Below are positions 3,039 through 24,714 of a stretch of DNA of 29,410 nucleotides, in pieces. Position 1 is the stretch's first letter. The number at the start of each line of letters is the position of its first letter. Both the position numbers and the translations under genes were made by a program. Below the pieces are notes generated by a model. That model saw only the letters and a list, made by a program, of their open reading frames with translations. It was not told the DNA's origin and made no database searches. The stretch comes from a virus, in IMG/VR virus record IMGVR_UViG_3300015171_000088, positions 1 through 29,410 of that record. One strand, given 5' to 3'.

Positions 3039-3325
3039 GTCCGATCATGAATAATTATTATGATAAAAGAGAATAAACAGATAAAAAGAGAATAACTATT
3101 CGTGGCCGATCACCTATCAGGTATGACAGATAAGAAGTCTACCAGAATGCCCCGCAGTGAAACCCAGTGACACGTAGACTGACGATCGACACTAGACCTA
3201 GGTGAGTAGTCATCTCGAATGGAATCGTGCAACCTGAAGCACTCTAGGCCAAAATCCAAAAGGGATCAAAACGTTACATAACTATTATCGTTAAGTGAGT
3301 TAATACCTGTAAAATACTTAACAAT

Positions 3326-3454
3326 AGTAAGAAAAATAACACTGTTAAGCAAATAAGTGTTAAGTAAGAGAATGAACAGTAAGAAAAATAACAGTGTTAA
3401 CTATGTCAAGCTAGACACAGAGAAGAAAAAGCAAATGTACAGTGTTAAGTAAGA
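3326..3454. repeat. purine-tract/GTTAA direct repeat family
   Basis: A 23-bp unit (AGTAAGAAAAATAACA, one C/G variable position, then TGTTAA) occurs at 3326-3348 and 3378-3400. A second unit, AGTGTTAAGTAAGA, occurs at 3356-3369 and 3441-3454. GTTAA cores also appear near 3290-3302. This is a third repeat family distinct from the TTCTAGAA arrays, lying just past the leftward terminator of the 3598-4053 gene. Candidate binding sites for a replication or regulatory protein. Confidence 0.55.
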
Positions 3455-3495
3455 TAACGAATAAAAAGCGAAATAAAGAGTCAAAATAAATAGAC

Positions 3496-3519
3496 AAAAA
3501 AAAATAGGGAAACTCCCTA
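3496..3519 (-). terminator. strong intrinsic terminator of the leftward gene at 3598-4053
   Basis: Read leftward: TAGGGA (3519-3514), a three-base loop, TCCCTA (3510-3505), then nine T (3504-3496). An outer inverted pair, GTAGACT (3542-3548) and AGTCTAC (3571-3577), lies between this hairpin and the stop codon at 3598. Together with the promoter at 4115-4143 it makes the gene a self-contained transcription unit. Confidence 0.85.
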
Positions 3520-3597
3520 GTGGGAATCTCCCCTATCCTTTGTAGACTTAATTTTTGATTCTATGGGAACAGTCTACTTACTCCCAAAAGGAAAAAA

Positions 3598-4053
3598 CTA
3601 GTCACTTTCGTCCATCAACATCGTGGCAGTTGCAATCGCCTTCGCGCGTGAAAGTTTCGGATTTTGCTTCTGCATCGCATCGGCCAACTTCTCAATCTTG
3701 ATAGCAGGACCGACCAGAGACGTTTCCATCTTGATCCGCTGATTACGCGAGAAAATAAGCTTCAAGGAATCATAGGCAAGTTTCAGGACTCCGGTTAATT
3801 CCGAAAATTCCTTGTCCACCAGTTCGCCTCCATTCTTTTTCGCATACTCATCTAACCATGCCTGGATACCTGATGCCGTAGAAGGAACTAAAACGAAGGA
3901 ATTATAATCCTTAGTTTTTCCTGCAACATCCGGGTCAGCAAATTTTCCTGTAACTTCTAGAAGTTTGAATCCTGGCGTAGCGGAAGGCACGTCGAACAGA
4001 GTTGTGTAAACTTTTTCGTTAGCGGTTGGTGTTGATACTGTCATCTCGCTCAT
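3598..4053 (-). CDS. self-contained moron-like gene, product of unknown function (151 aa)
   Basis: ATG at 4053 is preceded by CCGAGGAGA (4069-4061), a near-ideal ribosome binding site, and by a consensus-type promoter; a strong terminator follows. The product is 151 aa, soluble, with no signal peptide or membrane segment. Its N-terminal half contains KLLEVTGKFADPDVAGKTKD, a middle part looks beta-rich, and the C-terminus ends in a helical segment (LSRAKAIATATMLMDESD) that resembles the end of the Cys/His-rich protein at 1410-2084. The gene uses G+C-ending codons (GCG, TCG, CGC, ATC) far more than its AT-rich neighbours. Isolation between two gene-free regions, its own signals and foreign composition are the marks of a recently acquired cargo gene expressed apart from the lytic programme, by host RNA polymerase. 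I do not recognise the family; an accessory or host-interaction role is inference. Confidence 0.82.
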   Translation of the reverse strand: MSEMTVSTPTANEKVYTTLFDVPSATPGFKLLEVTGKFADPDVAGKTKDYNSFVLVPSTASGIQAWLDEYAKKNGGELVDKEFSELTGVLKLAYDSLKLIFSRNQRIKMETSLVGPAIKIEKLADAMQKQNPKLSRAKAIATATMLMDESD

Positions 4054-4114
4054 ATCGTTTTCTCCTCGGGAAATCTGGCTCGTTAGGTGAGCTACTCCAA
4101 TTGGCTACTCCTAC

Positions 4115-4143
4115 ATCTTACTACATTCTTGAATCGGTGTCAA
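4115..4143 (-). promoter_or_regulatory. sigma70-type promoter for the leftward gene at 3598-4053
   Basis: On the minus strand: -35 TTGACA (4143-4138), 17-nt spacer, -10 TAAGAT (4120-4115), about 60 nt before the start codon. Perfect -35 hexamer and optimal spacing. A GTCAA...TTGAC inverted repeat covers the -35 (about 4139-4155) and could be an operator. Confidence 0.8.
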
Positions 4144-4867
4144 GTACTTTTTTGACTGCCACCAGGTTTCTTTCAGCTTGGCCTACCCAGGGGGGTATCG
4201 AATGAACAGTCTAGAACAAAGTACATGCATAGGCAAGTTTGTAGACAAGCTGAATTTTGAATACTTCTTTGCCTAATAGTTCTTCAGAAAATATCTCTAT
4301 TTCTGGAATCTTTAAAGTTATCACCTCACTTTCGTATACTTCTAGGATTTGACTACTATATCACAGTTAGGGTTTTACTACTACTTCTAGCGTCGTCATA
4401 AGATCATAACAGATTCTCTCTGCCATCTTAACCGCTAAATGGTAAGAATATCCTTTCAGGATTGAAGTTTTATAGTCGAGAGAGTCCAAACATCTAAGTT
4501 TGCTGATATCTCTGTGCGGTGTTTGCCGTCCAAAGTATCTAAGGAAACTGTTGAGTAACTCTCTCGACTATTTAATAAGTATCTCATAATAGTTATTCTA
4601 TGTCAAGAAAATAATACAGAGAATCATCTATGTATTCTCATATAATAACTATCCGACCCCATCCCCCGTATACCCATAATTAATGAGTCTCCTATACGTC
4701 GCGCACAAGGGCAATACTGGTATCACGCCCATATAAATATGTATCGTAATTACTATATCACATAATAGTAGGAATTATGATTCAAATACTTCGTTCATTT
4801 TTTCTTCCCATCTTTTAGTGAACATTTCTTGCTTGCTAACCTTATGAATCTAGGCTAGATAAAAAGC
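4144..4867. other. divergent intergenic region between leftward gene and rightward late operon
   Basis: No convincing gene of normal size. Contents: an inverted pair AGGCAA/TTGCCT (about 4231-4274), the structured element at 4472-4571, a small hairpin ATCCT-TTC-AGGAT (4450-4462), a nested inverted-repeat set (AATAGTTATT 4588-4597 with AATAACTATC 4644-4653, and GAGAAT 4619-4624 with ATTCTC 4634-4639), and the perfect palindrome ATCTAG-G-CTAGAT (4848-4860) immediately upstream of the rightward -35. Two possible tiny frames were noted: 24 codons at 4202-4276, and 13 codons from the ATG at about 4778 behind a TAGGA; neither has other support. Confidence 0.5.
4472..4571. ncRNA. candidate structured RNA or foldback element closed by a 14-bp perfect inverted repeat
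   Basis: ATAGTCGAGAGAGT (4472-4485) is exactly complementary to ACTCTCTCGACTAT (4558-4571), enclosing 72 nt. Inside are a hairpin CAAAC-ATCTAA-GTTTG (4487-4502), a short hairpin CGG...CCG (4517-4528), and a partial direct repeat of the type CCAAA..ATCTAAG (about 4486-4498 and 4530-4543). That is a closing stem with a multibranch-like interior, as in many regulatory or catalytic RNAs. It matches no family I can name: there is no CUGAUGA hammerhead core and no tRNA arm. Strand is undecided because the stem reads both ways. A miniature foldback mobile element is the main alternative, but no clear target duplication flanks it. Confidence 0.55.
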
Positions 4868-4897
4868 TTGACATGGGATAGTGAATCGTGCTAGGCT
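4868..4897 (+). promoter_or_regulatory. candidate promoter of the rightward (late) operon
   Basis: TTGACA at 4868-4873 and, 18 nt on, TAGGCT (4892-4897) preceded by TG at 4889-4890, i.e. a poor -10 rescued by an extended -10. The palindrome at 4848-4860 abuts it upstream. It is the only good -35 hexamer I saw between 4144 and the first rightward gene. The weak -10 may mean that an activator is needed. Confidence 0.5.
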
Positions 4898-4931
4898 TAT
4901 AGAGACGACAGGATCGAAAAGGAGATTTTTT

Positions 4932-5309
4932 ATGAGTTTACTAGGTGAGGAAAAGAATTTAGAGGGCGAAAAAGTTTCTGCTTTAGATGTTTTTCTGGCT
5001 AGTAAAAAGACTTTGGGAGGAACTTTAAATCCTTCGGGTACTTCTGTACCTAATAGTCCTACAGATGTATATACACATCCTCCGAATACTCCATTAACTA
5101 TTGATACTAATTTATCTAAGAATCCTTCTGGAACTTCTGCTCCTAATTCTCCTGTTTCTAGCTCATCTGTAAATCCTCCTCCTTCTCTTGGCGGTTCGGC
5201 TTTTACTTCCTCTTTAGTTGAGAATTCGGAGAGGATTGCTAGGAATAGTGGCTCTGATAGTGGATATGGAGATAATCGTGGAAATAATACTCCCTCTGAC
5301 CTCTACTAA
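4932..5309 (+). CDS. Ser/Pro/Asn-rich low-complexity protein, function unknown
   Basis: The frame is open from a GTG at 4881, but the ATG at 4932 has AAGGAG (4919-4924) at a proper distance and lies downstream of the promoter, so 125 aa is preferred. The product begins MSLLGEEKNLEGEKVSALDV and is otherwise low-complexity, with two near-identical copies of NPSGTSxPNSP and many Ser, Pro and Asn. No membrane segment or enzyme motif. It is the first gene of the rightward operon. Its end overlaps the longest possible form of the next frame, but not the start chosen for that gene. Disorder suggests a linker, scaffold or interaction protein; nothing more can be said. Confidence 0.65.
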   Translation: MSLLGEEKNLEGEKVSALDVFLASKKTLGGTLNPSGTSVPNSPTDVYTHPPNTPLTIDTNLSKNPSGTSAPNSPVSSSSVNPPPSLGGSAFTSSLVENSERIARNSGSDSGYGDNRGNNTPSDLY

Positions 5310-5325
5310 TTTCTATGATACGATT

Positions 5326-5643
5326 ATGCACTCAGTTAAGGTTAAGCGTGTTCGTATCAATAGCGTGAATAATGAATCTCTTATCAATAAGAATCAGCGT
5401 ACTATTGATAATTTACGTAATGCTCTGATTTCTAACTATATCTCTGATCTTCCTTTGGCTGCTGTAGGTGGACGGGAATTAAATCCTCCTGATGGATCAC
5501 GTGATGCTTTTGTAGGAGAGGGGCGTAAGTATATTGGTATCTATACTTCTACCGAACTTGATCCTAATGGGAATCATGTTTGTGTCTTTATCACTCCTGA
5601 TGATAATAGTTATATTAATAATGTATTACAAGGTATCGACTAA
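5326..5643 (+). CDS. hypothetical protein (about 105 aa; start uncertain)
   Basis: The frame is open back to 5218, but the part before 5326 overlaps the previous gene and reads as a shadow. The ATG at 5326 gives MHSVKVKRVRINSVNNES and 105 aa. No Shine-Dalgarno is visible; another ATG at 5315 is out of frame. The N-terminal half is basic and helical; the C-terminal half (IGIYTSTELDPNGNHVCVF) looks like a small beta domain. Not recognised. It lies 6 bp before the HTH protein, its likely operon partner. Confidence 0.55.
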   Translation: MHSVKVKRVRINSVNNESLINKNQRTIDNLRNALISNYISDLPLAAVGGRELNPPDGSRDAFVGEGRKYIGIYTSTELDPNGNHVCVFITPDDNSYINNVLQGID

Positions 5644-5649
5644 TTCTAT

Positions 5650-6324
5650 ATGACCTTTCTATCTCAAACGGACGCACTTAAGTCTTTAGGTTCCTCTCGT
5701 AACTTGCTTAATAAGTTATCAGGGACTCCTGTATCTTCTAGTGCGCCCGTTCGAGTTATAGAATCTGTTAATGATAAAGATAATGAATCATTTCCGAAGG
5801 AAAACGCACGGGACACTCTAACTACTCCTACTGAGGTTATTGAGGGTGTTGTTGTTTCTGATAATGATAGATCGCAAATTTTACCTAATCCTATTCGTGG
5901 TAAAAAGTTAGGTTCTTCTCATGTATCTGAGGAGGTTAGATTACAAATTGCTACGGATTCTCTTAATGGTGTGGAACAGGTTGATATTGCTCATAAGTAT
6001 GGTATAACTGATAGAACTGTTAAAAGTGTTGTACAGGATATGCGTACCGGAAACGGCACAGAAAAGTTTAATACTGTAGTGGAGGGTAAGAAGCGAGAAA
6101 TTTCTGATTATGCTCTATCTGCTATGCTTCAGTCTCTGCACGTTATAACTCCTCATAAATTGGAAGGTTTATCTGCTAAAGATGCATCATTAGTTGCTAT
6201 GCAGTTGTCTCGCACTGTTTCTAACTTAATGCCGAAAGAGACTATTGTTGATAATCGTACCCAATTAGTTATATTTGCTCCAGGACAGAAATTGGTAGAT
6301 GATTATGAACAGGTTGAGGTATAA
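5650..6324 (+). CDS. HTH DNA-binding protein, small terminase subunit candidate
   Basis: 224 aa. Residues 1-90 are Ser/Asn-rich and probably disordered. Residues about 93-131 form a resolvase-like helix-turn-helix (EEVRLQIATDSLNG, then VDIAHKYGITDRTVKSVV). A helical region follows (150-200), then a short hydrophobic beta segment and acidic tail (QLVIFAPGQKLVDDYEQVEV). An N-terminal HTH, a helical oligomerisation region and a C-terminal tail suit a TerS that recognises the packaging site and hands DNA to TerL. It lies upstream of TerL in the same transcript, though separated by the membrane-protein cluster. A transcription factor of the operon is the alternative. Stop and next start are TAA-ATG with no gap. 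Confidence 0.55.
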   Translation: MTFLSQTDALKSLGSSRNLLNKLSGTPVSSSAPVRVIESVNDKDNESFPKENARDTLTTPTEVIEGVVVSDNDRSQILPNPIRGKKLGSSHVSEEVRLQIATDSLNGVEQVDIAHKYGITDRTVKSVVQDMRTGNGTEKFNTVVEGKKREISDYALSAMLQSLHVITPHKLEGLSAKDASLVAMQLSRTVSNLMPKETIVDNRTQLVIFAPGQKLVDDYEQVEV

Positions 6325-6558
6325 ATGGAAACTCGTAGGATGTATGATGCGGATTCTATATCTGATAGGGAATTACTAATACTTATGAATCAGAAATTGG
6401 ATGGTCTATCCTATCATATATTTGGTGGTGGTCCTAATAATACTAAAGGATTAACTACTAGGGTAGAGACTTTAGAGAATATGGTTTTAAAAGCTATGGG
6501 TGGAATGGGTGTAGTTTTATTCATTCTCACATGTTTGAAGTTAGTCTTTGGTAAATAA
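6325..6558 (+). CDS. small membrane protein with coiled coil and C-terminal TM segment (holin/XhlA-like)
   Basis: 77 aa. Residues 14-55 are helical (ISDRELLILMNQKLDGLSY; then TTRVETLENMVLKA), and residues about 56-75 (MGGMGVVLFILTCLKLVF) form one membrane span ending in GK. An N-terminal coiled coil followed by a single C-terminal span is the plan of XhlA-type haemolysin/holin-accessory proteins. It starts directly after the preceding stop and is followed by three more tiny membrane-type proteins, so a role in membrane permeabilisation is reasonable. No Shine-Dalgarno; coupled translation is likely. Confidence 0.65.
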   Translation: METRRMYDADSISDRELLILMNQKLDGLSYHIFGGGPNNTKGLTTRVETLENMVLKAMGGMGVVLFILTCLKLVFGK

Positions 6559-6561
6559 TCT

Positions 6562-6870
6562 ATGACTGATTCTGTATGGACAGTTATTGGTGCGGCGGTC
6601 CCAGTTATAGGTGGATTGGCTACTCTGATACTACAAAATTACTATGCGGCTTTGTCTAGAGCTGAATCTACTAGGAAGTTAGATAGTATTGGTTCTACTA
6701 TTACTGAGACTAAGAAGGCTGTGGATGGTCACTTAACTAATGTTACTACAGAATTAGCTGTTACTAGTAGAGCATTAGCTACTTCTACAGGTTCTTTTAA
6801 GGATAATGTTACGGCTACTATCAATGAGAAAAATGCTTCTGACTTACAAAAGACCGAAGAAAAGAAATGA
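6562..6870 (+). CDS. small membrane protein with N-terminal TM and long helical tail (holin or spanin-like)
   Basis: 102 aa. Residues 5-28 (VWTVIGAAVPVIGGLATLIL) form one membrane span. The rest is a soluble, threonine-rich helix ending in charged residues (DLQKTEEKK), the plan of an i-spanin or of a type III holin-like protein. No lipobox protein that would serve as o-spanin is evident next to it. One GTGCGGC copy (6590) encodes the Ala-Ala within the membrane span. Part of the membrane-protein cluster 6325-7200. Confidence 0.6.
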   Translation: MTDSVWTVIGAAVPVIGGLATLILQNYYAALSRAESTRKLDSIGSTITETKKAVDGHLTNVTTELAVTSRALATSTGSFKDNVTATINEKNASDLQKTEEKK

Positions 6871-6871
6871 T

Positions 6872-6970
6872 ATGTGGAGTCGTTGCCTATGTTTTCTCCT
6901 CAATTGGCTAGAGTGTGCTTATGATCTTCTTTCTAAAAGACAGAAAAGTGAGTGCACTCTAAGTCAATGA
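6872..6970 (+). CDS. 32-aa small hydrophobic ORF, translationally coupled to the next gene
   Basis: ATG at 6872 lies one base after the previous stop. The 32-codon frame begins MWSRCLCFLLNWLECAYDLL, a short Cys/Leu/Trp-rich hydrophobic helix, followed by a basic tail (SKRQKSE). Its TGA (6968-6970) overlaps the ATG at 6967 of the next gene. Exact packing on both sides supports real translation. It could be a tiny lysis-associated membrane peptide or only a coupling leader. Confidence 0.5.
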   Translation: MWSRCLCFLLNWLECAYDLLSKRQKSECTLSQ

Positions 6971-7200
6971 CTATTATAGTTAACTTTGTAATTCAGCTAT
7001 TTTGTATATGGTTAGTCTATGGAACTATTGCATCTAATTACTTAACTTATAGTGCTAAGCAGATAATACTTTTAACTATAGCTTTTGTTCAGATGCTAAT
7101 TAGCTTATTCGTTCATGGATATAATACTGATGGAACATCGCAGAAGGTAGCTTATCTATCTTCCAAAGACTTAGAAGTAGGAACACAAAAGGAGAACTAA
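6967..7200 (+). CDS. small two-span membrane protein (holin candidate)
   Basis: 77 aa from the ATG at 6967; a GTG at 6952 is also in frame, but the ATGA overlap with the preceding small ORF favours 6967. Two hydrophobic spans are clear: IIVNFVIQLFCIWLVYGTIA (about 3-22) and a second at about 33-55 (IILLTIAFVQMLISLFV). A polar tail follows, with both termini probably on the same side. Two short spans with a hydrophilic end is the class II holin plan. It precedes a gene with a strong ribosome binding site whose AAGGAG lies inside this gene's 3' end. Confidence 0.6.
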   Translation: MTIIVNFVIQLFCIWLVYGTIASNYLTYSAKQIILLTIAFVQMLISLFVHGYNTDGTSQKVAYLSSKDLEVGTQKEN

Positions 7201-7560
7201 ATGGGATTTCTCAAGAATTTCGGTGCGGCGCTTTTGAAGATTGGTGAAGTGGTTACGGGAGTTGGTCCTATTTTCTCTCAATTTTTACCTAAAGGAGCCG
7301 CTGGTACTTTGGCTACTGTGGAAGATACTTTTACTAAGATTATGGGTACAGTTATGACTGTGGAGACATTTTTTGCCGCACTAACTAGTAAAGGATTAAC
7401 TGGTGCAGATAAGTTAAAGGCTGCTACTCCTTTGGTTTCTCAGATTATTCTACAAACTGAGGGATTAAAGGGTAAGAAGGTTAAGGATTTGGTTAAGTAC
7501 CAAGCTTCTGTGGCAGGAATTACTTCGAATATTGCAGATTTACTTAACTCTTTTGAGTAA
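7201..7560 (+). CDS. conserved-type phage protein of unknown function (119 aa)
   Basis: Start at 7201 immediately after the previous stop, with AAGGAG 7 nt upstream, one of the strongest sites in the operon. The product begins MGFLKNFGAALLKIGEVVTG, a possibly amphipathic or membrane-associating helix. The later part (LTGADKLKAATPLVSQIILQ ... ITSNIADLLNSFE) resembles, from memory, hypothetical proteins common near the lysis genes of other phages. No enzyme motif. It carries two heptamer copies (GTGCGGC at 7223, GCCGCAC at 7375), both on Ala-Ala codons. Confidence 0.65.
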   Translation: MGFLKNFGAALLKIGEVVTGVGPIFSQFLPKGAAGTLATVEDTFTKIMGTVMTVETFFAALTSKGLTGADKLKAATPLVSQIILQTEGLKGKKVKDLVKYQASVAGITSNIADLLNSFE

Positions 7561-8931: not shown

Positions 8932-10590
8932 ATGCTGACTAATACAGAACAACAATCAGATACAGTTAGAAGATGGAAGCCTAATCTGAAACAGGTTAAG
9001 TTTATGTCTCTTCCGGATACTATCTTTGAGGCTCTGTATGGCGGTGCGGCGGGTGGTGGGAAGACTGAAGTATTACTAATGATGTTTATCGCTAAACAAT
9101 ATCATAAGATTCCGCGAGTCAAAGGTATACTGTTACGTAGAACCTTTCCGGAACTAGAAGGTGAAGTTGTACCTCGTTCGCAGGATTATTATCCGATAAC
9201 TGGTGCAGAGTATGATAAAGCTAAACATATCTGGACTTGGCCTTCTGGAGCTACTTTAAAGTTTGGACATGCGGAGAATGAAGATGATATACGTAAGTAT
9301 GATTCTTCTGAGTTTCAGTATGCAGCATTTGATGAACTTACTTCTTTCACACAGTTCCAGTATAACTATATTGTATCTACCCGTTTACGATCTTCAATTC
9401 CTGGCATAATCCCAATTGCACGCTCTGGTAGTAATCCTGGTAATATCGGGCATGGATGGGTTAGAGATTACTTTGTCGAGCCTTGTAAAGAAGGTGGTAA
9501 AATCCTTGTCAATAAGGTAACGAAGCAGAAAAGAATCTTCATCCCTGCAAAGTTAGAGGATAATACTGATCTAATCAAAACTGATCCTACATATCGTAAT
9601 CGTCTAGAAGGTTTAACTAATGAGGCTGAGCGCCGCGCAAAGTTATATGGTGATTGGTATACATTTACTGGACAGGTATTTAAGTTTAGAAATGAACCTA
9701 TGCCTGATGAGCCTGATAATGCTAGACATGTTATAGAACCTTTTGAGATTCCTAATTGGTGGACTAAGATTAGAGCATTAGATTGGGGACAGGCTGCTAT
9801 GACTTATTGTGTTTGGGCAGCTATTTCTCCTTGGAAGCGGGTATATATCTATCGTGAGTATTCTCCTAAGATCGGTACTCTTATTTCTGACTGGGGTTCT
9901 GATATTTCTAGACTTTCTCAGGGAGAAGTTTACAAAGATTCAGTAATTGATCCCTCTTCTAGGGTTCGTGATAAGAAAGATAACGAGAGCATTCTAAGTC
10001 AAGTTAATACACATACGGGATATAACTGGTCACTAGCAGACAATGATAGGATTTCTGGTAAGACGCTTTGCGAAGATTATCTAAGATGGTGGCAGAAACC
10101 TATTTCCTATGTTCCTCCAGAAGGATATAAAGAAGATACTGCTAATGATATTCTTAGGAAACAAGGAGTATATGCTAGAGATGAGTACATTAAAATGTTT
10201 CTCCCTCAAGCAGAGGAAACTGGTCTACCCAGATTACAGATTTTCAAAACTTGTCCAATACTTATCAAAACTATTCCATTATGTACCTATGATAAAAATA
10301 ATACGGAAGATGTACAAGATTTCGATGGTGATGATCCTTATGATGCTTGGAGATATTTGATTAAGCGTTGTCATCTCTATTTAAGTAGTACAGAGAAAAT
10401 CGCCGCACAGGATGAGGCTAAAGGTCTTGTGATTCAAAAGTTAGAGAAAACTGGAGATATGACTGATTTCTATATGAGTATGGCTAGAATTGATGGAGCT
10501 AAATCTAATATAGCTGCTATGAATGTTCGCGGTAAATATAACTTCTTACCTGTTAGAAAAGTTCATGGAGGATTACGTAGACATGCTTAA
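8932..10590 (+). CDS. terL: terminase large subunit (ATPase/nuclease)
   Basis: 552 aa. ATPase domain: Walker A GGAAGGGKT (37-45), Walker B with catalytic glutamate YAAFDE (130-135), and a coupling segment GSNPGNIGH (166-174). RNase H-like nuclease domain: ALDWGQ (D284), VIDPSS (D340) and the late acidic pair and helix GDDPYDAWRY (466-475). It docks on the portal, pumps DNA into the prohead and cuts the concatemer. The start is ATG at 8932, one base after the preceding stop, without a Shine-Dalgarno. Two heptamer copies lie in the gene, at 9044 within the Walker A codons and at 10402. Length is normal for the family. Function is certain; the packaging type cannot be read from it. Confidence 0.96.
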   Translation: MLTNTEQQSDTVRRWKPNLKQVKFMSLPDTIFEALYGGAAGGGKTEVLLMMFIAKQYHKIPRVKGILLRRTFPELEGEVVPRSQDYYPITGAEYDKAKHIWTWPSGATLKFGHAENEDDIRKYDSSEFQYAAFDELTSFTQFQYNYIVSTRLRSSIPGIIPIARSGSNPGNIGHGWVRDYFVEPCKEGGKILVNKVTKQKRIFIPAKLEDNTDLIKTDPTYRNRLEGLTNEAERRAKLYGDWYTFTGQVFKFRNEPMPDEPDNARHVIEPFEIPNWWTKIRALDWGQAAMTYCVWAAISPWKRVYIYREYSPKIGTLISDWGSDISRLSQGEVYKDSVIDPSSRVRDKKDNESILSQVNTHTGYNWSLADNDRISGKTLCEDYLRWWQKPISYVPPEGYKEDTANDILRKQGVYARDEYIKMFLPQAEETGLPRLQIFKTCPILIKTIPLCTYDKNNTEDVQDFDGDDPYDAWRYLIKRCHLYLSSTEKIAAQDEAKGLVIQKLEKTGDMTDFYMSMARIDGAKSNIAAMNVRGKYNFLPVRKVHGGLRRHA

Positions 10591-10981: not shown

Positions 10982-11198
10982 AGGGATCGCTAAGGAAAAG
11001 GTTATGAGAAATAAGATAGGCATACAAGAGAATATAGCTAAGGATTTGGGATTATCTATGGGTGGGGTCCATCTTGGTTCTAAAGACTTCGCACATAAGA
11101 ACTATAAGCCTAAGTCTCTAAATGATTTTAAGTTTAAGGAAAATAAGATGAATAAATCTCCCCTGTCTACTGCTATTAAGCTGAAAAAAGGTAAATAA
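10968..11198 (+). CDS. small basic protein, function unknown (76 aa)
   Basis: ATG at 10968, overlapping the previous gene by 14 bp, with AGGAAAC upstream. 76 aa, lysine-rich (MSQTEGIAKEKVMRNKIGIQ ... LSTAIKLKKGK), no cysteines, no membrane span. Ends TAATG, sharing a base with the portal start. Basic charge suggests nucleic-acid or portal/terminase interaction; unproven. Confidence 0.55.
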   Translation: MSQTEGIAKEKVMRNKIGIQENIAKDLGLSMGGVHLGSKDFAHKNYKPKSLNDFKFKENKMNKSPLSTAIKLKKGK

Positions 11199-13582
11199 TG
11201 TCACCTTCTCAAGATACTACAAGAGATCAAATAGCATCTAATGATCCTCTATTTGGTAGAGAGAATTTACAGGCTATTTTGATTGACTTGGCTAAGCAGA
11301 TTAAGAATGAGGATTACTATAAAAGGTACGACCAGTTAGTAAAGGCTAAGCAGTTTAATTTGTTCTGGTCCGGTGTTCAGAAGATTTTCTGGGATAATGA
11401 TATTAATGATTTTAGAGTACCTACTCAGGATGCTTTTGTTTCAGGAGATAATACTAGAGAAGAGATTCAGTTTGTTTATGATTACGTTATCAATATTGTT
11501 AAGCCTCATGGAGAATCTTTCATTGCAGCATTATCATCTGAGCTTCCGAAAGTTCTATTCGGACCTGATGATGCTATGAATCCTGATGATATTCGTGCGG
11601 CGAAGTTAGCTAATAATAAGGCTGAGCATATTCAGTTATATAACAAGTCAAAACTGATGGCGATTTATGTTCTATATCTCTTCTTCTGTGAAGGATTTGC
11701 TGCTGCTTATGTATATCCAGATAAGGATAAGGGATACGGAGAAGTTGCTATTCCTACTTTTGGAGAACCTATTTCTGTTACGGAACCTGATAGTGTAACT
11801 TGTCATGGATGTGGAACTTCTTCTCCTACAAATACTTTGATACAAGGAAGTAATCCTCCACCAGAAAGTGAAGATGTTAATAGTTGTCCTTCTTGTGGAA
11901 CAGATGTAACAGATAATCCAACTATTCCTGGACAAGTTATACAACAACCTAATCCTCTTCCCGATACGATGGAGATTGTTACTAGACAGTTGATTAATAT
12001 CTATGGCCTAGGTAATGTTAAAGTACCATCATTTGCAATGAATCAGAAGGATTTTCCGTGGTTGGTTAACTATATAGATTCTCACTACTCAACTCTGCGT
12101 GATAAATTCCAAACTCTCAGAGATAAAATTGGTCCTGGAGAAGCTGGAGATTTTGAACGTTCCATGAGATCATCTTCGGTGATTAACTCTGATAACTTCT
12201 ATCAGTATAATCCTGAGATTAATACTTTAGAGAAATACTGGATTCGCCCTTCTATGTTTCAGTCTATCATAGATGATCAGGAGACGGAAGTTGAGGAGTT
12301 AATAGCACTCTTTCCTGATGGATGCTGTTTCTCTCTGATTGATACTTTATTCTGTGAAAGTAAGAATGAGAGTATGGATGAATGTTGGAGAGTTACAAAA
12401 GCTGGTCCGTCTAAAGGTGCACATGCTGACGCTGTTGGTAAAAACTTAATCTCTATCAATGATTCGCGTAATACTTTGCTAAACTTGATGATACAGACTA
12501 TTGAGTATGGTATACCTTCTACTTTTGCTGATCCTGAAGTATTAGACTTTGATGCCTATAATGCTACAGAAGCATCTCCCGGAACTGTATATCCTGCACA
12601 GCCTAAGATTGCAGGTTCTTCTATTGGTAATTCTTTTTATGATTCCAAGACTTCTAACTTATCTAAAGAAGCTTTAGCATTTCAGACCGCACTAGATAAT
12701 GATGCTCAATTTAATATCGGAAATGTTCCCTCAGTATATGGTGGAGCGGCAGAAGGATCGAAAACTTTAGGAGAGTACCAGAATTCTAGGGCATATGCTC
12801 TTCAGCGTTTATCTCTACCTTTTGAATACTATTCTGATTTCTATAAGGAAACTATAGCATTAGCTACCCGTAGAGCTATTAAGACTCAGATTGCTGATGA
12901 GAAATTTACTAAGCCTATAGGAGTAGATTCTTTCCAAACTGTATGGATGAAACAAGCAGACTCTAAGGGTAAATTTGATTTGATGATTGAGCAAGTTTCC
13001 TCATCCGTGCCAATTTCATGGGAACAGAAGAGATCAGTTATGATTCAGTTATTAACTATGAATAGTCCAGAGATTATGCAGTTGCTAGGTTCTACTGATA
13101 ACTTATCTGCTGTTTTGCAACTATCTGGATTAGGTGGGACTATAAAGGTTCCTAATGAGTTACAGAGGATTAAACAACTTCAAGAACTAATTCAATTACT
13201 TAATGCGGCGCCTACAGAAGTTCCTGATCCTTCTGGAGCTATAAATCCTATAGATGGTATGCCAGTAACTATAATGAAGTCTACCGTACCTATTGAACCT
13301 AATGTAGATGAAGATGAGTCTCACATAGATACTTTACGTGACTTCATGGTATCTCAGTCAGGGTTAGATCATAAAGATAATAATCCCGCTGGTTATGCAA
13401 ATTGTTTAGCTCACTTTAATGAACATAGGGAACATATGATAATGATGTCAATGCCTCCTCCATTACCTTCACCATCTGATAAACCTAACCCAAATAAGAA
13501 TAGTGAAAAAGGTAAAGCTAATAATCCTAAAGGTAATGCACCGAATCCAGTTCACCAAGGAAATGCTGTACCGGGAGTATAA
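11198..13582 (+). CDS. portal protein with inserted zinc ribbon
   Basis: 794 aa, in the usual place after TerL. Large helical protein with the portal-like C-terminal core (NVPSVYGGAAEGSKTLGEYQ, residues about 511-530, then long helices rich in Arg and Tyr). It forms the 12-fold vertex through which DNA enters and to which the connector binds. Residues 200-235 contain two knuckles, CHGC (202-205) and CPSC (230-233), making a zinc ribbon inside the protein, a feature I would not expect in classical portals. The C-terminal 60 residues are Pro/Asn/Lys-rich and disordered. Start ATG overlaps the previous stop. One GTGCGGC copy at 11595. Confidence 0.85.
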   Translation: MSPSQDTTRDQIASNDPLFGRENLQAILIDLAKQIKNEDYYKRYDQLVKAKQFNLFWSGVQKIFWDNDINDFRVPTQDAFVSGDNTREEIQFVYDYVINIVKPHGESFIAALSSELPKVLFGPDDAMNPDDIRAAKLANNKAEHIQLYNKSKLMAIYVLYLFFCEGFAAAYVYPDKDKGYGEVAIPTFGEPISVTEPDSVTCHGCGTSSPTNTLIQGSNPPPESEDVNSCPSCGTDVTDNPTIPGQVIQQPNPLPDTMEIVTRQLINIYGLGNVKVPSFAMNQKDFPWLVNYIDSHYSTLRDKFQTLRDKIGPGEAGDFERSMRSSSVINSDNFYQYNPEINTLEKYWIRPSMFQSIIDDQETEVEELIALFPDGCCFSLIDTLFCESKNESMDECWRVTKAGPSKGAHADAVGKNLISINDSRNTLLNLMIQTIEYGIPSTFADPEVLDFDAYNATEASPGTVYPAQPKIAGSSIGNSFYDSKTSNLSKEALAFQTALDNDAQFNIGNVPSVYGGAAEGSKTLGEYQNSRAYALQRLSLPFEYYSDFYKETIALATRRAIKTQIADEKFTKPIGVDSFQTVWMKQADSKGKFDLMIEQVSSSVPISWEQKRSVMIQLLTMNSPEIMQLLGSTDNLSAVLQLSGLGGTIKVPNELQRIKQLQELIQLLNAAPTEVPDPSGAINPIDGMPVTIMKSTVPIEPNVDEDESHIDTLRDFMVSQSGLDHKDNNPAGYANCLAHFNEHREHMIMMSMPPPLPSPSDKPNPNKNSEKGKANNPKGNAPNPVHQGNAVPGV

Positions 13583-13585
13583 AAC

Positions 13586-14212
13586 ATGAGAGTTCGTTTA
13601 ACAGACCAAGTAATTTTATCAGCTAATGGAGTACGTACATCTGTCTGGTTTGATACTTGTGAAGAAGGGTATATTAATGCTAATTATGTAACTGTTTCAT
13701 TATTCGCAGATCAAGTATCTGCTGCATTGGGTTTAGTTATTCAAGAGTCTGACGATCAAGTTAATGTACGGACGGCTGCATCTGTAAGTGTTTTAGCTTC
13801 TACATTAGCTTCTTGTCAAGCAACTATTCGTCGTAAGTTTTGGCGTGTAGTTTATACAAATGGTGGAGTAAATCAAGGTTCCTTTATCTTAGTTGCTTCT
13901 GATACAATTAATCTTTTAGCTTCTACTGATGCTTCTGGTGCAACTTCTGTAGCTATTGCATCTGGAAGTGCTGTAGTAGCTAATTCTGGATTACCTTTTA
14001 TTTATACTACTGCTATTGACAATACAGCAGTTAATAATCAAGTTCTCTATCAAGGTTGGGCAATACCGGGAACAGCTAAAAGTGCTGCTTCATGGGCAAT
14101 TGTTAAATATACTTATGACGGTAATGGAATTGTTTCAGACATTCAATGGGCTGGTGGAGTTGCAACATTCTCTACAGTATGGAATAACAGAGGGGCAGCT
14201 TCTTACAGTTAA
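13586..14212 (+). CDS. putative virion structural protein (208 aa)
   Basis: Starts 3 bp after the portal stop. 208 aa, Ala/Ser/Val/Thr-rich and beta-dominated, with the phrase RRKFWRVVYTNGG in the middle and an alternating hydrophobic pattern throughout; no cysteine cluster, no signal peptide. Such proteins between portal and scaffold in related layouts are usually head decoration or fibre-like components. It contains the only GTGCTGC I found in the window (14082), where other genes use GTGCGGC. Function otherwise unknown. Confidence 0.6.
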   Translation: MRVRLTDQVILSANGVRTSVWFDTCEEGYINANYVTVSLFADQVSAALGLVIQESDDQVNVRTAASVSVLASTLASCQATIRRKFWRVVYTNGGVNQGSFILVASDTINLLASTDASGATSVAIASGSAVVANSGLPFIYTTAIDNTAVNNQVLYQGWAIPGTAKSAASWAIVKYTYDGNGIVSDIQWAGGVATFSTVWNNRGAASYS

Positions 14213-14225
14213 AGGAGAGTTTTTT

Positions 14226-15191
14226 ATGAAGAACATATTTCCCAAATTGCTTTGTCTTTGTTTTTTGTTTTCAGGTACAGGTTTACTTTTCGGTCAGTAT
14301 GTTGCACGTACTAATCCTTATACTGGTAAACCCGATTTAGTAAATAAAGTTCCTATTTCTTATGCTAATGGAGGATGTAATTCTTCTACATTGTGGACTA
14401 CAGGAAGTGTGTTATTTGCTGGAGCAAGTTCATGTGCTCAGGATAATGCTAACTTTTTTTGGGATAATGTAAATAAAAGACTTGGTATTGGGACGACGAA
14501 TCCGTCATCGTTATTAACGGTTGGAGGTAGAACATATATAGATATCGAAGGTTCACAATCCGACACCGGATATCCATCCGGTGTTAGAATCTCTCAACCA
14601 AGTACGACTTACCAATACTTAACGATGATTAGTCATGGAACATATCCCTGGTCACTCGGGATTATGCCGCAACCAAATAATTTTTTTGGTATCGGAACAG
14701 GGCAGAATACAGATTCGAGTTTCGTGCCATTATTCGGAGTTGATTCTTCGGGCAATGTCGGGATTGGGATAACGAATCCACAAGCAAAGTTGAATATTAT
14801 TTCAGCTAATTCTCTAACAATCAATGACATAATGTTTACCAATGATGCTTCGGGAAATTATAGAAACGGCATAGCAAATATTCAAAGTAACAGTTCAGCG
14901 GCTGGTAATGGTATGAGTTTTAGGGTTGGAGATAGTTCAGTATCCGGACAAACTACTGTTATGACTTTGCTAGGAAACGGTAACGTCGGCATAGGAACGA
15001 CGATTCCTGGAGAAAAGTTAGCAGTTAATGGTAATGTTAAAGTTGCAAATACTATTCAAGTTGGTTTATATACAGTAGCTACACTTCCAACCTGTAATGG
15101 TGGGGCAGAAGGAAAAATTGCTGGTGCAACTGATTTACTAGCTCCTACATTTTTAACAACTGCAAATGGTACGAATTGGATTACTAACTAA
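14226..15191 (+). CDS. fibre-like protein with N-terminal signal peptide
   Basis: The ATG at 14226 follows AAGGAG at good spacing; the open frame extends upstream only inside the previous gene. 321 aa. Residues 1-24 (KNIFPKLLCLCFLFSGTGL then LFGQ) form a typical Sec signal peptide. Repeated fibre motifs NxGIGTTxP occur three to four times (LGIGTTNP, VGIGITNP, VGIGTTIP), each followed by LxV, the pattern of trimeric beta-rich tail-fibre stalks. The last 50 residues (LYTVATLPTCNGGAEGKIAG) resemble ends seen in other fibre-like proteins. A Sec signal on a virion-type protein is odd, because virion assembly is cytoplasmic. Codons such as ACG, TCG and CCG at about 14480-14840 differ from the neighbours, suggesting the segment was acquired. 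Confidence 0.75.
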   Translation: MKNIFPKLLCLCFLFSGTGLLFGQYVARTNPYTGKPDLVNKVPISYANGGCNSSTLWTTGSVLFAGASSCAQDNANFFWDNVNKRLGIGTTNPSSLLTVGGRTYIDIEGSQSDTGYPSGVRISQPSTTYQYLTMISHGTYPWSLGIMPQPNNFFGIGTGQNTDSSFVPLFGVDSSGNVGIGITNPQAKLNIISANSLTINDIMFTNDASGNYRNGIANIQSNSSAAGNGMSFRVGDSSVSGQTTVMTLLGNGNVGIGTTIPGEKLAVNGNVKVANTIQVGLYTVATLPTCNGGAEGKIAGATDLLAPTFLTTANGTNWITN

Positions 15192-15200
15192 AGGAAAAAT

Positions 15201-16499
15201 ATGGTAAACTCAATCGCTGATGTTTCTGAATCTTTTGATAAAGATTTAGATTTGTTAAATTCTGAAGAAACTGTTGAAGTTCCCCCTTCTGATAAAACTG
15301 CTGATAAAGTAGTTCTTGATAAGGATAAGGAAATTACTCCTTTAAAAGAAGAAGATTATGAAAAAGAGGAAGTAGAACAAGAGGAAGAAAATGAAGATAA
15401 TGACGAAGATAAAGTTAAGGATGAAGAAGAAGTTGAAGAAGATAAATCTAAAGATGAAGATGAAAAAGGTAGCATAGATAAGGTTCCTCAAGCTTCGGTT
15501 AAAGAAGTTAAGGCTAAGTATCCCACTATCTTTAAGGAGTTTCCTGAGTTAAAAACCGCACTTTTCCAAGCTAGAGCATTTAAGGAAGTTTTTCCGTCTA
15601 TAGAAGAAGCTAGGGAAGCTTCTGGTAAGTCTGATGATTTCTCTTTCATGGAGGAGAAGTTACTTTCGGGTAAGCCTGAGGATTTCGGTCAATTTCTATC
15701 AGCTATCAATACAGCATCTCCTAAAGCATTGGAGAGCGTGGCTGGGAATTTTTTACCTACACTGTACTCTATCAATCCGAATCTATATATGGAAGCTACA
15801 GCACCTTTGGCTCAGAATATCGTTAAGGCTATGTATAAGGCTGGTATAACTCATGGGAATGAGAATCTAAAAGCATCTGCTCTACATGCAGCTAAGTATC
15901 TATTTGACGACCATGAGATTGCTACGGATAAAAAATCTATTCCGGCTAAAACTAGTGCTAAAGTAGAAAATGATCCTGAGAGAGTTAAATTTGAGCAAGA
16001 ACGTACAGAGTTTGCTCAGACTAAGTATAATGACTTTAGGGGGGAAGTAGTTGGGGATGCTAAAGATTCTATCATTAGGGTTATCGAGAATGGTTTAGAC
16101 CCATCTTTAACTCCCTATGAGAAAAGAAATGTGATTAATGATATCGCTGCTGAGTTAACTAATGTTCTACAATCGGATAAAGATCACCAGAATATGATGA
16201 ATTCTTTGTGGGGAAGGCACGGAAAAGTAGATAATAAGGAACTAAAGACCAGAATCCTCTCCACGCATCTGGCGCGTGTACGTTCCTTGATTCCTTCTAT
16301 CCGTGCTAAAATTGTAGGTGAAGTTCTGAAACAATCAGGAAGAACATCTGTGAAACCTACTGATGAGAAGAAAGTAGACAATAAAGTACGTGAAATAAGG
16401 TCTGCTGGAAACTCTGGTGGTGGATCAAAGAATAAACCTGTGGACTTGAAAAACGTAGACTGGCGTAAAACGTCAGATATGGATATCTTGTCCTCCTAA
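15201..16499 (+). CDS. scaffold-like protein preceding the major capsid gene
   Basis: 432 aa, start ATG behind AAAGGAAAAAT. Residues 1-95 are strongly acidic and low-complexity (long runs of Glu, Asp and Lys). Residues 95-400 are helical and charged with no enzyme motif, and the C-terminus is basic and flexible. An acidic, coiled, helix-rich protein directly before the major capsid protein is the standard position and look of a head scaffolding protein that guides procapsid assembly and then leaves. No protease motif is seen in or next to it. It contains the single complete AAGTGCGGT word (complement, 15555-15563). Confidence 0.7.
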   Translation: MVNSIADVSESFDKDLDLLNSEETVEVPPSDKTADKVVLDKDKEITPLKEEDYEKEEVEQEEENEDNDEDKVKDEEEVEEDKSKDEDEKGSIDKVPQASVKEVKAKYPTIFKEFPELKTALFQARAFKEVFPSIEEAREASGKSDDFSFMEEKLLSGKPEDFGQFLSAINTASPKALESVAGNFLPTLYSINPNLYMEATAPLAQNIVKAMYKAGITHGNENLKASALHAAKYLFDDHEIATDKKSIPAKTSAKVENDPERVKFEQERTEFAQTKYNDFRGEVVGDAKDSIIRVIENGLDPSLTPYEKRNVINDIAAELTNVLQSDKDHQNMMNSLWGRHGKVDNKELKTRILSTHLARVRSLIPSIRAKIVGEVLKQSGRTSVKPTDEKKVDNKVREIRSAGNSGGGSKNKPVDLKNVDWRKTSDMDILSS

Positions 16500-16531
16500 A
16501 GTTATCATAATCCTTGGGAGAGGATTCAATT

Positions 16532-17788
16532 ATGGCACAGACTGAATCGCAAGTAGTTGGTGTAGAGATGGAACGTGTTGTACCAAAGGTTCCTACTCTT
16601 TTCGAGCGTGATGATACTTTTTTCTCTCACATTGAGAAGCGTCCCGCGGAAGTAGTTTCTAATCGTCTTATGCGTATTCCTTTAGAGTTGCGTCCGGGTG
16701 GTAATTTCGGACACTTTAATGCTGATAACGGAGATATGGGACGTGGTGATGGTCCTACTTATGATAAGGCTACTATTTCACCAGCTTTCCTTAAAGAAGG
16801 CTTTGAAATGACAACCTTGTCACAATGGGTTACTGATGATAAGCGGAAGGCTGTTATCAATTCTTTTCGTCAATTATTAGCTAAGGCTATGGCAGAGTTT
16901 CGTCGTAATTGCGATTCTCTGACTATGACTGATGGGACTGGTGTTTTGGCTACTATTACTACTGTTACTACTGGTGCTGGTGTCGATACTTATACATTAA
17001 CTACTGACGGATTTGGCGCACGTTTGTTACGTTATGGCCAGACTGTAGATATTTATAGTGCTGATTTACTCACCTGCCGTACTTCTGGTAATGGTACGAA
17101 AATTAGCTTCTATGATTCTGCTAATAAAACTGTTAAGGTTACTGCTGTAGCTGGTGCGATTGCTACAGACTTGATCGTAGTAGGTGGATTAGGTGGTATT
17201 ACTCCTCCTGTATCTATTAAAGGTGTGAAATATCACGATTCTAATGCTTCTACTGGAACATGGCTAGGATTCGATCGTTCTACTACTCCTGAAATTAGGG
17301 CTAATAGGACGAATGCAAATGGTGGCCAGTTAACTTTACCTCTTCCTCGTTTAGCTATTAATAAAGCTGGTGATCGTGTAGGAATGGACGGAATTGGTAA
17401 ATTACAGGCATGGACTCATCCTTGTCAAGCACAGGCTTATGAACAGTTGGGATTTTTAACTACCGTTCTAAATAATCCTGGAGAAGATCGGAAATTGGAC
17501 TTGTATTATGGAGGAGCAAAGAAATTAGCTGGCGCTCCTTTAATGGAACATTTCTCATGGGATAAAACTCGCATCGACTTCATTGATATGCAAAGATGGG
17601 GACGTGCAGTAATGAAGGAAGCAGGTTTTTACGAACAGGGTGGGAAAAGGATTTTTGAAATCCGCGGAAGTTCCGGCGGAGTTCAGACTTCTAACATTTT
17701 CTATCTTGTTACTGCTTTTGACCTTTTTATGAATAATCCTGCTGGAGCTACGTATATTGACAATTTGAAGGTTCCAACTGGATACTAA
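16532..17788 (+). CDS. major capsid protein
   Basis: The frame opens at 16514, but the ATG at 16532 (MAQTESQVVGVEMERVVPKV) lies behind GGGAGAGGA and is preferred, giving 418 aa. N-terminal arm, then GGNFGHFNADNGDMGRGDGP, long helix ending FRRNCDSLTMTDG (a spine-helix-like element), a beta-rich insertion at about 140-225, and a C-terminal axial-type domain. Length, position after the scaffold-like gene and the strong terminator directly after it all fit the most highly expressed head gene. HK97 fold is inferred. Codon use is more GC-tolerant (CGT, GGT), typical of a highly expressed gene. Confidence 0.85.
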   Translation: MAQTESQVVGVEMERVVPKVPTLFERDDTFFSHIEKRPAEVVSNRLMRIPLELRPGGNFGHFNADNGDMGRGDGPTYDKATISPAFLKEGFEMTTLSQWVTDDKRKAVINSFRQLLAKAMAEFRRNCDSLTMTDGTGVLATITTVTTGAGVDTYTLTTDGFGARLLRYGQTVDIYSADLLTCRTSGNGTKISFYDSANKTVKVTAVAGAIATDLIVVGGLGGITPPVSIKGVKYHDSNASTGTWLGFDRSTTPEIRANRTNANGGQLTLPLPRLAINKAGDRVGMDGIGKLQAWTHPCQAQAYEQLGFLTTVLNNPGEDRKLDLYYGGAKKLAGAPLMEHFSWDKTRIDFIDMQRWGRAVMKEAGFYEQGGKRIFEIRGSSGGVQTSNIFYLVTAFDLFMNNPAGATYIDNLKVPTGY

Positions 17789-17792
17789 TTAA

Positions 17793-17860
17793 CTACTCCT
17801 CCTAGAGTAGATTAAGGGGAGAGAAGCTAATACTTTGCGCAGTTTCTCTCCCATTCTTTT
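17793..17860 (+). terminator. strong intrinsic terminator after the major capsid gene
   Basis: Hairpin 1: CTACTC/GAGTAG (17793-17810). Hairpin 2: GGGAGAGAAGCT (17817-17828) pairs with AGTTTCTCTCCC (17841-17852), 12 bp with one G-U, loop of 12, followed by ATTCTTTT. The second is a classic terminator; readthrough must feed the genes downstream, since no clear promoter follows. Confidence 0.88.
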
Positions 17861-17878
17861 AGCTTTATAGGAAAATAT

Positions 17879-18514
17879 ATGTCAGAACAAAGAACATTCA
17901 ATAAACGATTAAAGGATACCTACTCTAGTAATCTAAGAGGTGAAGCTCTATTTCGCATCTCATGGTCGGATTCCCAAACTGAGAATAGGTGGGGAACTTT
18001 TAGAGATACTGTTGGTGAAGTATTTATACGTGAAGTTTCCGAACGCAGAGTATGTAAAAAGTATCCACATATAAAGGAAAGATGGGTACTGGAAAGATGG
18101 ATGCCTCCTTCTCTACTTCAGGATGCTAAAAAAGAATTACCAGACGCCGCACAGAATGGTTCATATGAGCCTATTTACGTATTTGAGAATGAGGATGGAA
18201 ATTTTCTACCTTTAGACTGGGAATTTACTACTATAGTTGTGCAAACTGCTTTAGCTCCCTTATCCTATGCAGAATCTATGGCTAATAAGGAAGATAGAGC
18301 TATGTTCGATAAAACTATTATCGGTTCAGACAGGAAACAGGAAGCTGATGAGAAAGCTTTCTATGACCAATTATGTCAAGAAGGAAGTTCCTTTGAAGGT
18401 AAATTATCTGGTGCGGCAGGAGAAGGTGTTGTTGTATTAGATTCAGAATACTTCGCAAATAAGTTAGCAAATGAAAAACAGGAGAATCAATTATGTCAGA
18501 CCGTGCAACTATAG
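17879..18514 (+). CDS. putative structural protein of unknown function (211 aa)
   Basis: ATG at 17879 with AGGAAAA upstream. 211 aa, soluble, charged. The N-terminal third has LFRISWSDSQTENRWGTFRD and REVSERRVCKKYPHIKERWV, a pattern I associate with conserved proteins following capsid genes in uncultured phages, but without an assigned function. Two heptamer copies (18146 and 18411). Its last 22 bp overlap the next gene, whose CAGGAG site lies inside it. Probably a head-completion or minor virion component. Confidence 0.6.
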   Translation: MSEQRTFNKRLKDTYSSNLRGEALFRISWSDSQTENRWGTFRDTVGEVFIREVSERRVCKKYPHIKERWVLERWMPPSLLQDAKKELPDAAQNGSYEPIYVFENEDGNFLPLDWEFTTIVVQTALAPLSYAESMANKEDRAMFDKTIIGSDRKQEADEKAFYDQLCQEGSSFEGKLSGAAGEGVVVLDSEYFANKLANEKQENQLCQTVQL

Positions 18515-24360: not shown

Positions 24361-24714
24361 ATGTCAAAATTACTAAGCGACCTTGATCCTAAATTTAGAC
24401 CTTTAGCGGATAGATTACTATCCGATTGCTTAGGTGCAGGGGTATCTTTAGCTATTATAGAAACTTTACGCACACATGAAAAACATTTGCAGGATTTGCA
24501 AAATGGTGTATCTTGGGTACAGCATTCTAAACATGAGGATGGATTAGCTATAGATGTATGTCCTACTGATTACCTAAGCATAAAAGGCTGGAATCCTAGT
24601 GGTCCCGAATGGCAGATAATTGGTAAAGTTGGTAAGAAGTTAGGCATGAGATGGGGTGGAGATTGGAAACAGGAGGATTTAGGACATTTCGAGTATATTA
24701 GTGGGAAAGAGTAA
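24361..24714 (+). CDS. M15-family peptidase endolysin (D-Ala-D-Ala carboxypeptidase/L-Ala-D-Glu type)
   Basis: 117 aa, one base after the previous stop. Zinc ligands of the M15 fold are present in order: SKHEDGLAID (H58, D65) and DLGHFE (H109), with ETLRT earlier in the expected spacing. The domain is complete, without a cell-wall-binding module or signal peptide, so release through a holin is expected. It cleaves peptide links in peptidoglycan. It sits far from the holin-like cluster (6325-7200), a split lysis cassette. Ends TAATG with the next gene. Confidence 0.9.
   Translation: MSKLLSDLDPKFRPLADRLLSDCLGAGVSLAIIETLRTHEKHLQDLQNGVSWVQHSKHEDGLAIDVCPTDYLSIKGWNPSGPEWQIIGKVGKKLGMRWGGDWKQEDLGHFEYISGKE

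Follow-up and report, generated by a model that had tools for sequence, protein, structure and literature searches.

Tailed phages are taught as being assembled in the cytoplasm. What, then, is the role of a fibre-like protein that starts with a predicted Sec signal peptide and is encoded in the late operon of such a phage? The window, i.e. the whole stretch of DNA analyzed here, comprises the 29,410 nucleotides of IMG/VR record IMGVR_UViG_3300015171_000088, a 29.4-kb linear virus, and carries the gene in question on the plus strand at 14226–15191 (ATG start, 321 aa) behind a Shine-Dalgarno sequence rated good (AAAGGAGAG, 14211–14219, plus strand). TerL was located at 8932 by profile search and shares about 33% identity with TerL of Roseobacter and Pelagibacter phages, while the order of the genes suggests portal, scaffold and major capsid protein at 11198, 15201 and 16532, respectively. 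No family matches were obtained for these three presumed genes, and a search of viral contigs for proteins akin to TerL and to the presumed portal and capsid proteins revealed no close relative of the phage. Elsewhere in the window, an endolysin of the M15 D-alanyl-D-alanine carboxypeptidase type is encoded at 24361–24714 (plus strand), and a series of three small ORFs at 6325–7200 (plus strand; 77, 102 and 82 aa) encodes products with hydrophobic segments, possibly holins/spanins.

The protein almost certainly belongs to a fibre family. It matches the PHROG tail fibre profiles phrog_9942 (E 1.1e-8) and phrog_18345 (E 4.7e-5), and 228 viral relatives were found, nearly all of them cytoplasmic fibres lacking a signal peptide, and most of them longer. 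Pfam gave nothing useful for the gene, an S74 domain was not found, and an alignment of 35 relatives delineates a conserved module, TTGSVLFAG..QDNANFFWDNxNKRLGIGTT, at 14397–14498 (plus strand). Modelled with AlphaFold as a monomer, with 35 sequences in the alignment, the mature chain attains moderate confidence (pLDDT 66, pTM 0.50). The best PDB fold matches of this pLDDT-66 monomer are the Bdellovibrio MAT (mosaic adhesive trimer) fibres 8ond, 8oml and 8onc (E 2e-6 to 8e-5; Foldseek against 8onc, E 7.6e-5, TMt 0.55), and its best viral fold matches are phage fibre-like proteins. Profile matches, viral relatives and fold matches thus all bear out the fibre-like nature proposed in the original prediction.

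The N-terminus, MKNIFPKLLCLCFLFSGTGLLFG|QYVART, shows the tripartite build of a Sec signal peptide, which is assigned on a rule basis to residues 1–23 (14226–14294, plus strand): lysines are present at positions 2 and 7, about 15 residues form a hydrophobic stretch, acidic residues are lacking altogether and the −3/−1 site, L-F-G|Q, is usable. When a simple signal-peptide rule was applied to 28 window genes, this ORF was the sole large gene to pass, accompanied only by one for an 82-aa probable membrane protein. With LFG|Q there is no cysteine at +1 of the cleavage site and hence no lipobox, nor was an outer-membrane anchor recognized in the protein. The signal peptide claimed earlier therefore holds as a prediction, by rule as well as by anatomy, and judged from the sequence the protein is likely to be exported. 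By rule, a signal peptide is present in 1 of 136 GIGTT-type viral relatives; among relatives from bacterial genomes (Patescibacteria, Bacteroidota and others) the strict rule identifies one in 9 of 29.

From mature residue 7 onwards the protein reads NPYTGKPD (14313–14336, plus strand). This is a variant of NPFTGKLD, an N-terminal motif of phage fibres that starts at mature residue 5 in most NPFTGK[LF]D fibres. Searching viral contigs with the pattern NP[FY]TGK[LF]D yielded at least 120 stretches. Among the matches listed, 107 contexts of NPFTGK[LF]D are distinct; in 92 of these the motif begins five residues past the start, and their residue 2 is without exception small (A, G, P, S or T), so that removal of Met is to be expected and four residues would remain ahead of the motif. 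At least five of ten tested NPFTGK[LF]D proteins were assigned to PHROG tail fibres, and L171, a cytoplasmic NPFTG protein, matches phrog_9942 and phrog_18345 just as the window protein does. The pattern DW[KR][FY]-NPFTG was found in the two known loci only, and the NPFTGKLD form of the motif was absent from 545 bacterial genomes (296 from Bacteroidota and 249 from the phylum of an alphaproteobacterial MAG). We infer that fibres use the motif to dock on virions; alternatively, it could be the point at which trimerization starts.

The combination of export signal and fibre motif is not restricted to the window. Among the matches listed, six viral contigs (L178/L287, L179/L288, L219/L289, L243/L290, L259/L291 and L268/L292) encode a signal-peptide-like N-terminus directly before an NPFTGKLD-type motif. 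Cleavage, judged by eye with the −3/−1 rule, is predicted 4, 4, 5, 4, 4 and 7 residues before the motif, compared with 6 in the window protein; the start codon in L219 is uncertain. Head or tail genes are close by in five of the six (L243, L178, L259, L219 and L268), none being identified near the motif gene of L179, and all six contigs contain one or more further signal-peptide genes in the vicinity, as many as four of them consecutively. Mature proteins of the exported class contain 12.3 cysteines per 1000 residues versus 3.1 in the cytoplasmic class, which is rich in collagen-like repeats (Fisher p 3e-8, relatedness and composition being ignored), as expected for an oxidizing compartment. 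Counting the window, seven contigs without evident overall relatedness place an export signal before a shared fibre-end motif.

Runs of signal-peptide genes beside phage structural genes extend over 5851–8376 in L287, 2–2739 in L288, 1–3598 in L290 and 9863–14642 in L292. Contig L070 encodes, at 3129–7403, a fibre of 1232 aa whose signal peptide is Bacteroidota-like and whose N-terminal motif, YQAMPQAGYGPVKR, is a different one; a portal gene lies upstream and two more signal-peptide genes follow. Searches of cultured phages and of 118 Bacteroidota genomes gave no match to the N-terminus of this fibre.

The central part of the protein has a history of its own. Three motifs of the GIG[TI]TxP type, two exact copies and one variant, are present on the plus strand: GIGTTNP at residue 87 (14484–14504), GIGITNP at residue 179 (14760–14780) and GIGTTIP at residue 255 (14988–15008). 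They are common to many homologues and thus not a matter of chance. In MAT fibres, the loop that caps trimeric beta-helix segments has the sequence V-G-G/N-pi-X-X-P-X-X-X-L (PMC10769870), and the GIGTTxP motif resembles it. While the motifs are real, our comparison suggests that they are better described as capping loops than as the stalk repeats for which they had been taken. An unsupervised change-point analysis of codon usage, with the other window genes as reference and the motifs not used as input, delimits a foreign segment at 14490–15002 (residues 89–259, plus strand). Its score of −5.07 compares with a lowest value of −3.12 in 400 synonymous permutations, and none of 17 other genes scanned scored below −2.7. 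The codon-usage z amounts to −6.6 for 14480–15030 versus about +0.4 for each flank, and the core contains 20 CpG as against 7.2 ± 3.7 per 360 bases. A foreign core had originally been placed at about 14480–14840; the codon scan confirms it and sharpens its limits. In codon usage, signal peptide and NPYTGKPD part are native, as is the C-terminal part (15003–15188, plus strand), at the end of which model confidence is low.

As the outermost GIGTT copies mark the two ends of the foreign segment, the loops appear to be where a module entered or was swapped, and recombination at capping loops is very probable. When the flanks were joined with one GTT copy kept, 129 of 140 crossing alignments were ungapped, which does not prove insertion over replacement because any repeat protein behaves alike. 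A signal peptide of native usage in a gene with a foreign core makes the export signal look long resident and the core newer. No source of this DNA was found among phages. The core is a case of ordinary fibre mosaicism, albeit an unusually clear one, and the shift in codon usage that coincides with the capping loops provides a clear natural record of fibre module swapping. A codon z similar to that of the fibre core (about −6.4, GC 0.45) was noted for an isolated 151-aa ORF at 3598–4053 (minus strand) in a gene-poor stretch of the window. The heptamer GTGCGGC occurs at 17 sites on both strands between 1717 and 27840, mostly as GTGCGGCG, where 0.38 would be expected. It is indeed missing from the fibre gene, as had been pointed out, and this carries no evidential weight since the window average predicts just 0.56 copies for the gene and copies are also lacking from the surrounding 6.5 kb (11602–18145) with several genes.

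We favor, with a probability of roughly 40%, the explanation that the gene encodes a tailed-phage fibre-family protein of the late structural operon that is exported via Sec, has its docking end re-exposed by signal peptidase and docks on virions. Signal peptidase would remove residues 1–23 and expose the QYVART-NPYTGKPD end, the putative counterpart of the xxxF-NPFTGKLD end that arises in cytoplasmic fibres by Met removal. The same mature N-terminus could thus be reached by two routes, Met aminopeptidase and signal peptidase, which is our principal argument for supposing that exported proteins have retained the N-terminal partner that ordinary fibres have. The protein would trimerize on folding in the periplasm, and as lysis mixes periplasm and virions, the fibre would meet virions without transport across the outer membrane. 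Its N-terminus would then dock on the virion and add an adhesive fibre, in which beta-helix modules may be swapped at the capping loops to renew the binding part. Everything that follows export is inferred, and docking on virions after export, considered by itself, is conceivable at somewhat less than even odds. To our knowledge, no tailed phage has been shown to dock periplasmic fibres. It is rather doubtful whether there is an entire class of tailed phages with Sec-exported, periplasm-matured fibres that receive their virion-docking N-terminus from signal peptidase and dock outside of the cytoplasm at lysis.

The original prediction rested on the premise that an exported protein cannot reach the virion and accordingly envisaged a role on the host surface or outside, for example as receptor decoy, exclusion factor or biofilm component. 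The premise is unsafe, given that the predicted mature N-terminus carries a phage-fibre motif almost where cytoplasmic phage fibres have it and that six other contigs repeat this arrangement; docking on virions upon or after lysis fits these findings no less well. As far as the sequence tells, the protein may either attach to virions when they are released or exert its effect at the host envelope. In the latter case, it would be a moron, an exported fibre that stays in the periplasm or on the host surface and masks receptors, blocks superinfection or serves as an adhesin in a MAT-like manner. The predicted signal peptide, the MAT surface fibres as best PDB fold matches, the frequency of signal peptides in bacterial relatives and the precedent of exported late-region morons such as lambda Lom and Bor are all in line with this. 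Nothing specific speaks for any of the surface roles, however: lipobox and recognized outer-membrane anchor are lacking, no match to exclusion proteins was obtained, and a fibre motif kept near the mature N-terminus would be needless on the surface. We regard an action on the envelope as possible, if somewhat less likely than docking on virions.

The hydrophobic N-terminus might also remain uncleaved and serve as virion anchor of an ordinary cytoplasmic fibre, as could be imagined for a gene that sits among structural genes and whose viral relatives nearly all encode cytoplasmic fibres. A positive n-region without any acidic residue and with a −3/−1 site is, however, typical of a Sec signal, predicted cleavage in the other six contigs restores the usual distance of the motif, and neighboring genes in these contigs specify signal peptides as well, rendering such an anchor improbable. 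Even less probable is the capture of a gene for a bacterial surface adhesin including its signal peptide, with a merely coincidental phage-like motif. Relatives with signal peptides do exist in Bacteroidota and Patescibacteria genomes, but signal peptide and motif part exhibit native phage codon usage and the NPFTGKLD form does not occur in the 545 bacterial genomes.

Export signals before a shared fibre-end motif in seven contigs would imply that fibres either mature via the periplasm or, as spare copies, are in common use on the host envelope. While fibre mosaicism and exported morons are already known, a signal peptide before a phage fibre motif was not found in the open literature, and the open-access papers searched contained no reports of NPFTGKLD or of Sec-exported tailed-phage fibres. 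Among known systems, the phrog_9942 and phrog_18345 tail fibres are like the window protein by sequence match, and the viral relatives found differ from it in that nearly all are devoid of a signal peptide and most are longer. Lambda Lom and Bor are exported morons of phage late/tail regions, one an outer-membrane barrel and the other a lipoprotein. They resemble the window protein as exported products of a phage late region, but do not belong to a fibre family and lack the fibre N-terminal motif that it has. Bdellovibrio MAT fibres (PMC10769870) share with it a signal peptide (rule-based in our case) and chimeric parts and, to judge from the monomer model of moderate confidence, may also share a phage-fibre-like beta-helix with capping loops. 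They differ by a conserved domain of about 130 residues behind the signal peptide, for which the window protein offers no room: only 63 residues separate its cleavage site from the first GIGTT, the first 37 of them without predicted strand. It is, furthermore, phage-encoded, has no S74 domain that could be found and carries a different N-terminal motif. The fold of the window protein resembles that of the MAT surface fibres, but the protein is not a member of the MAT group.
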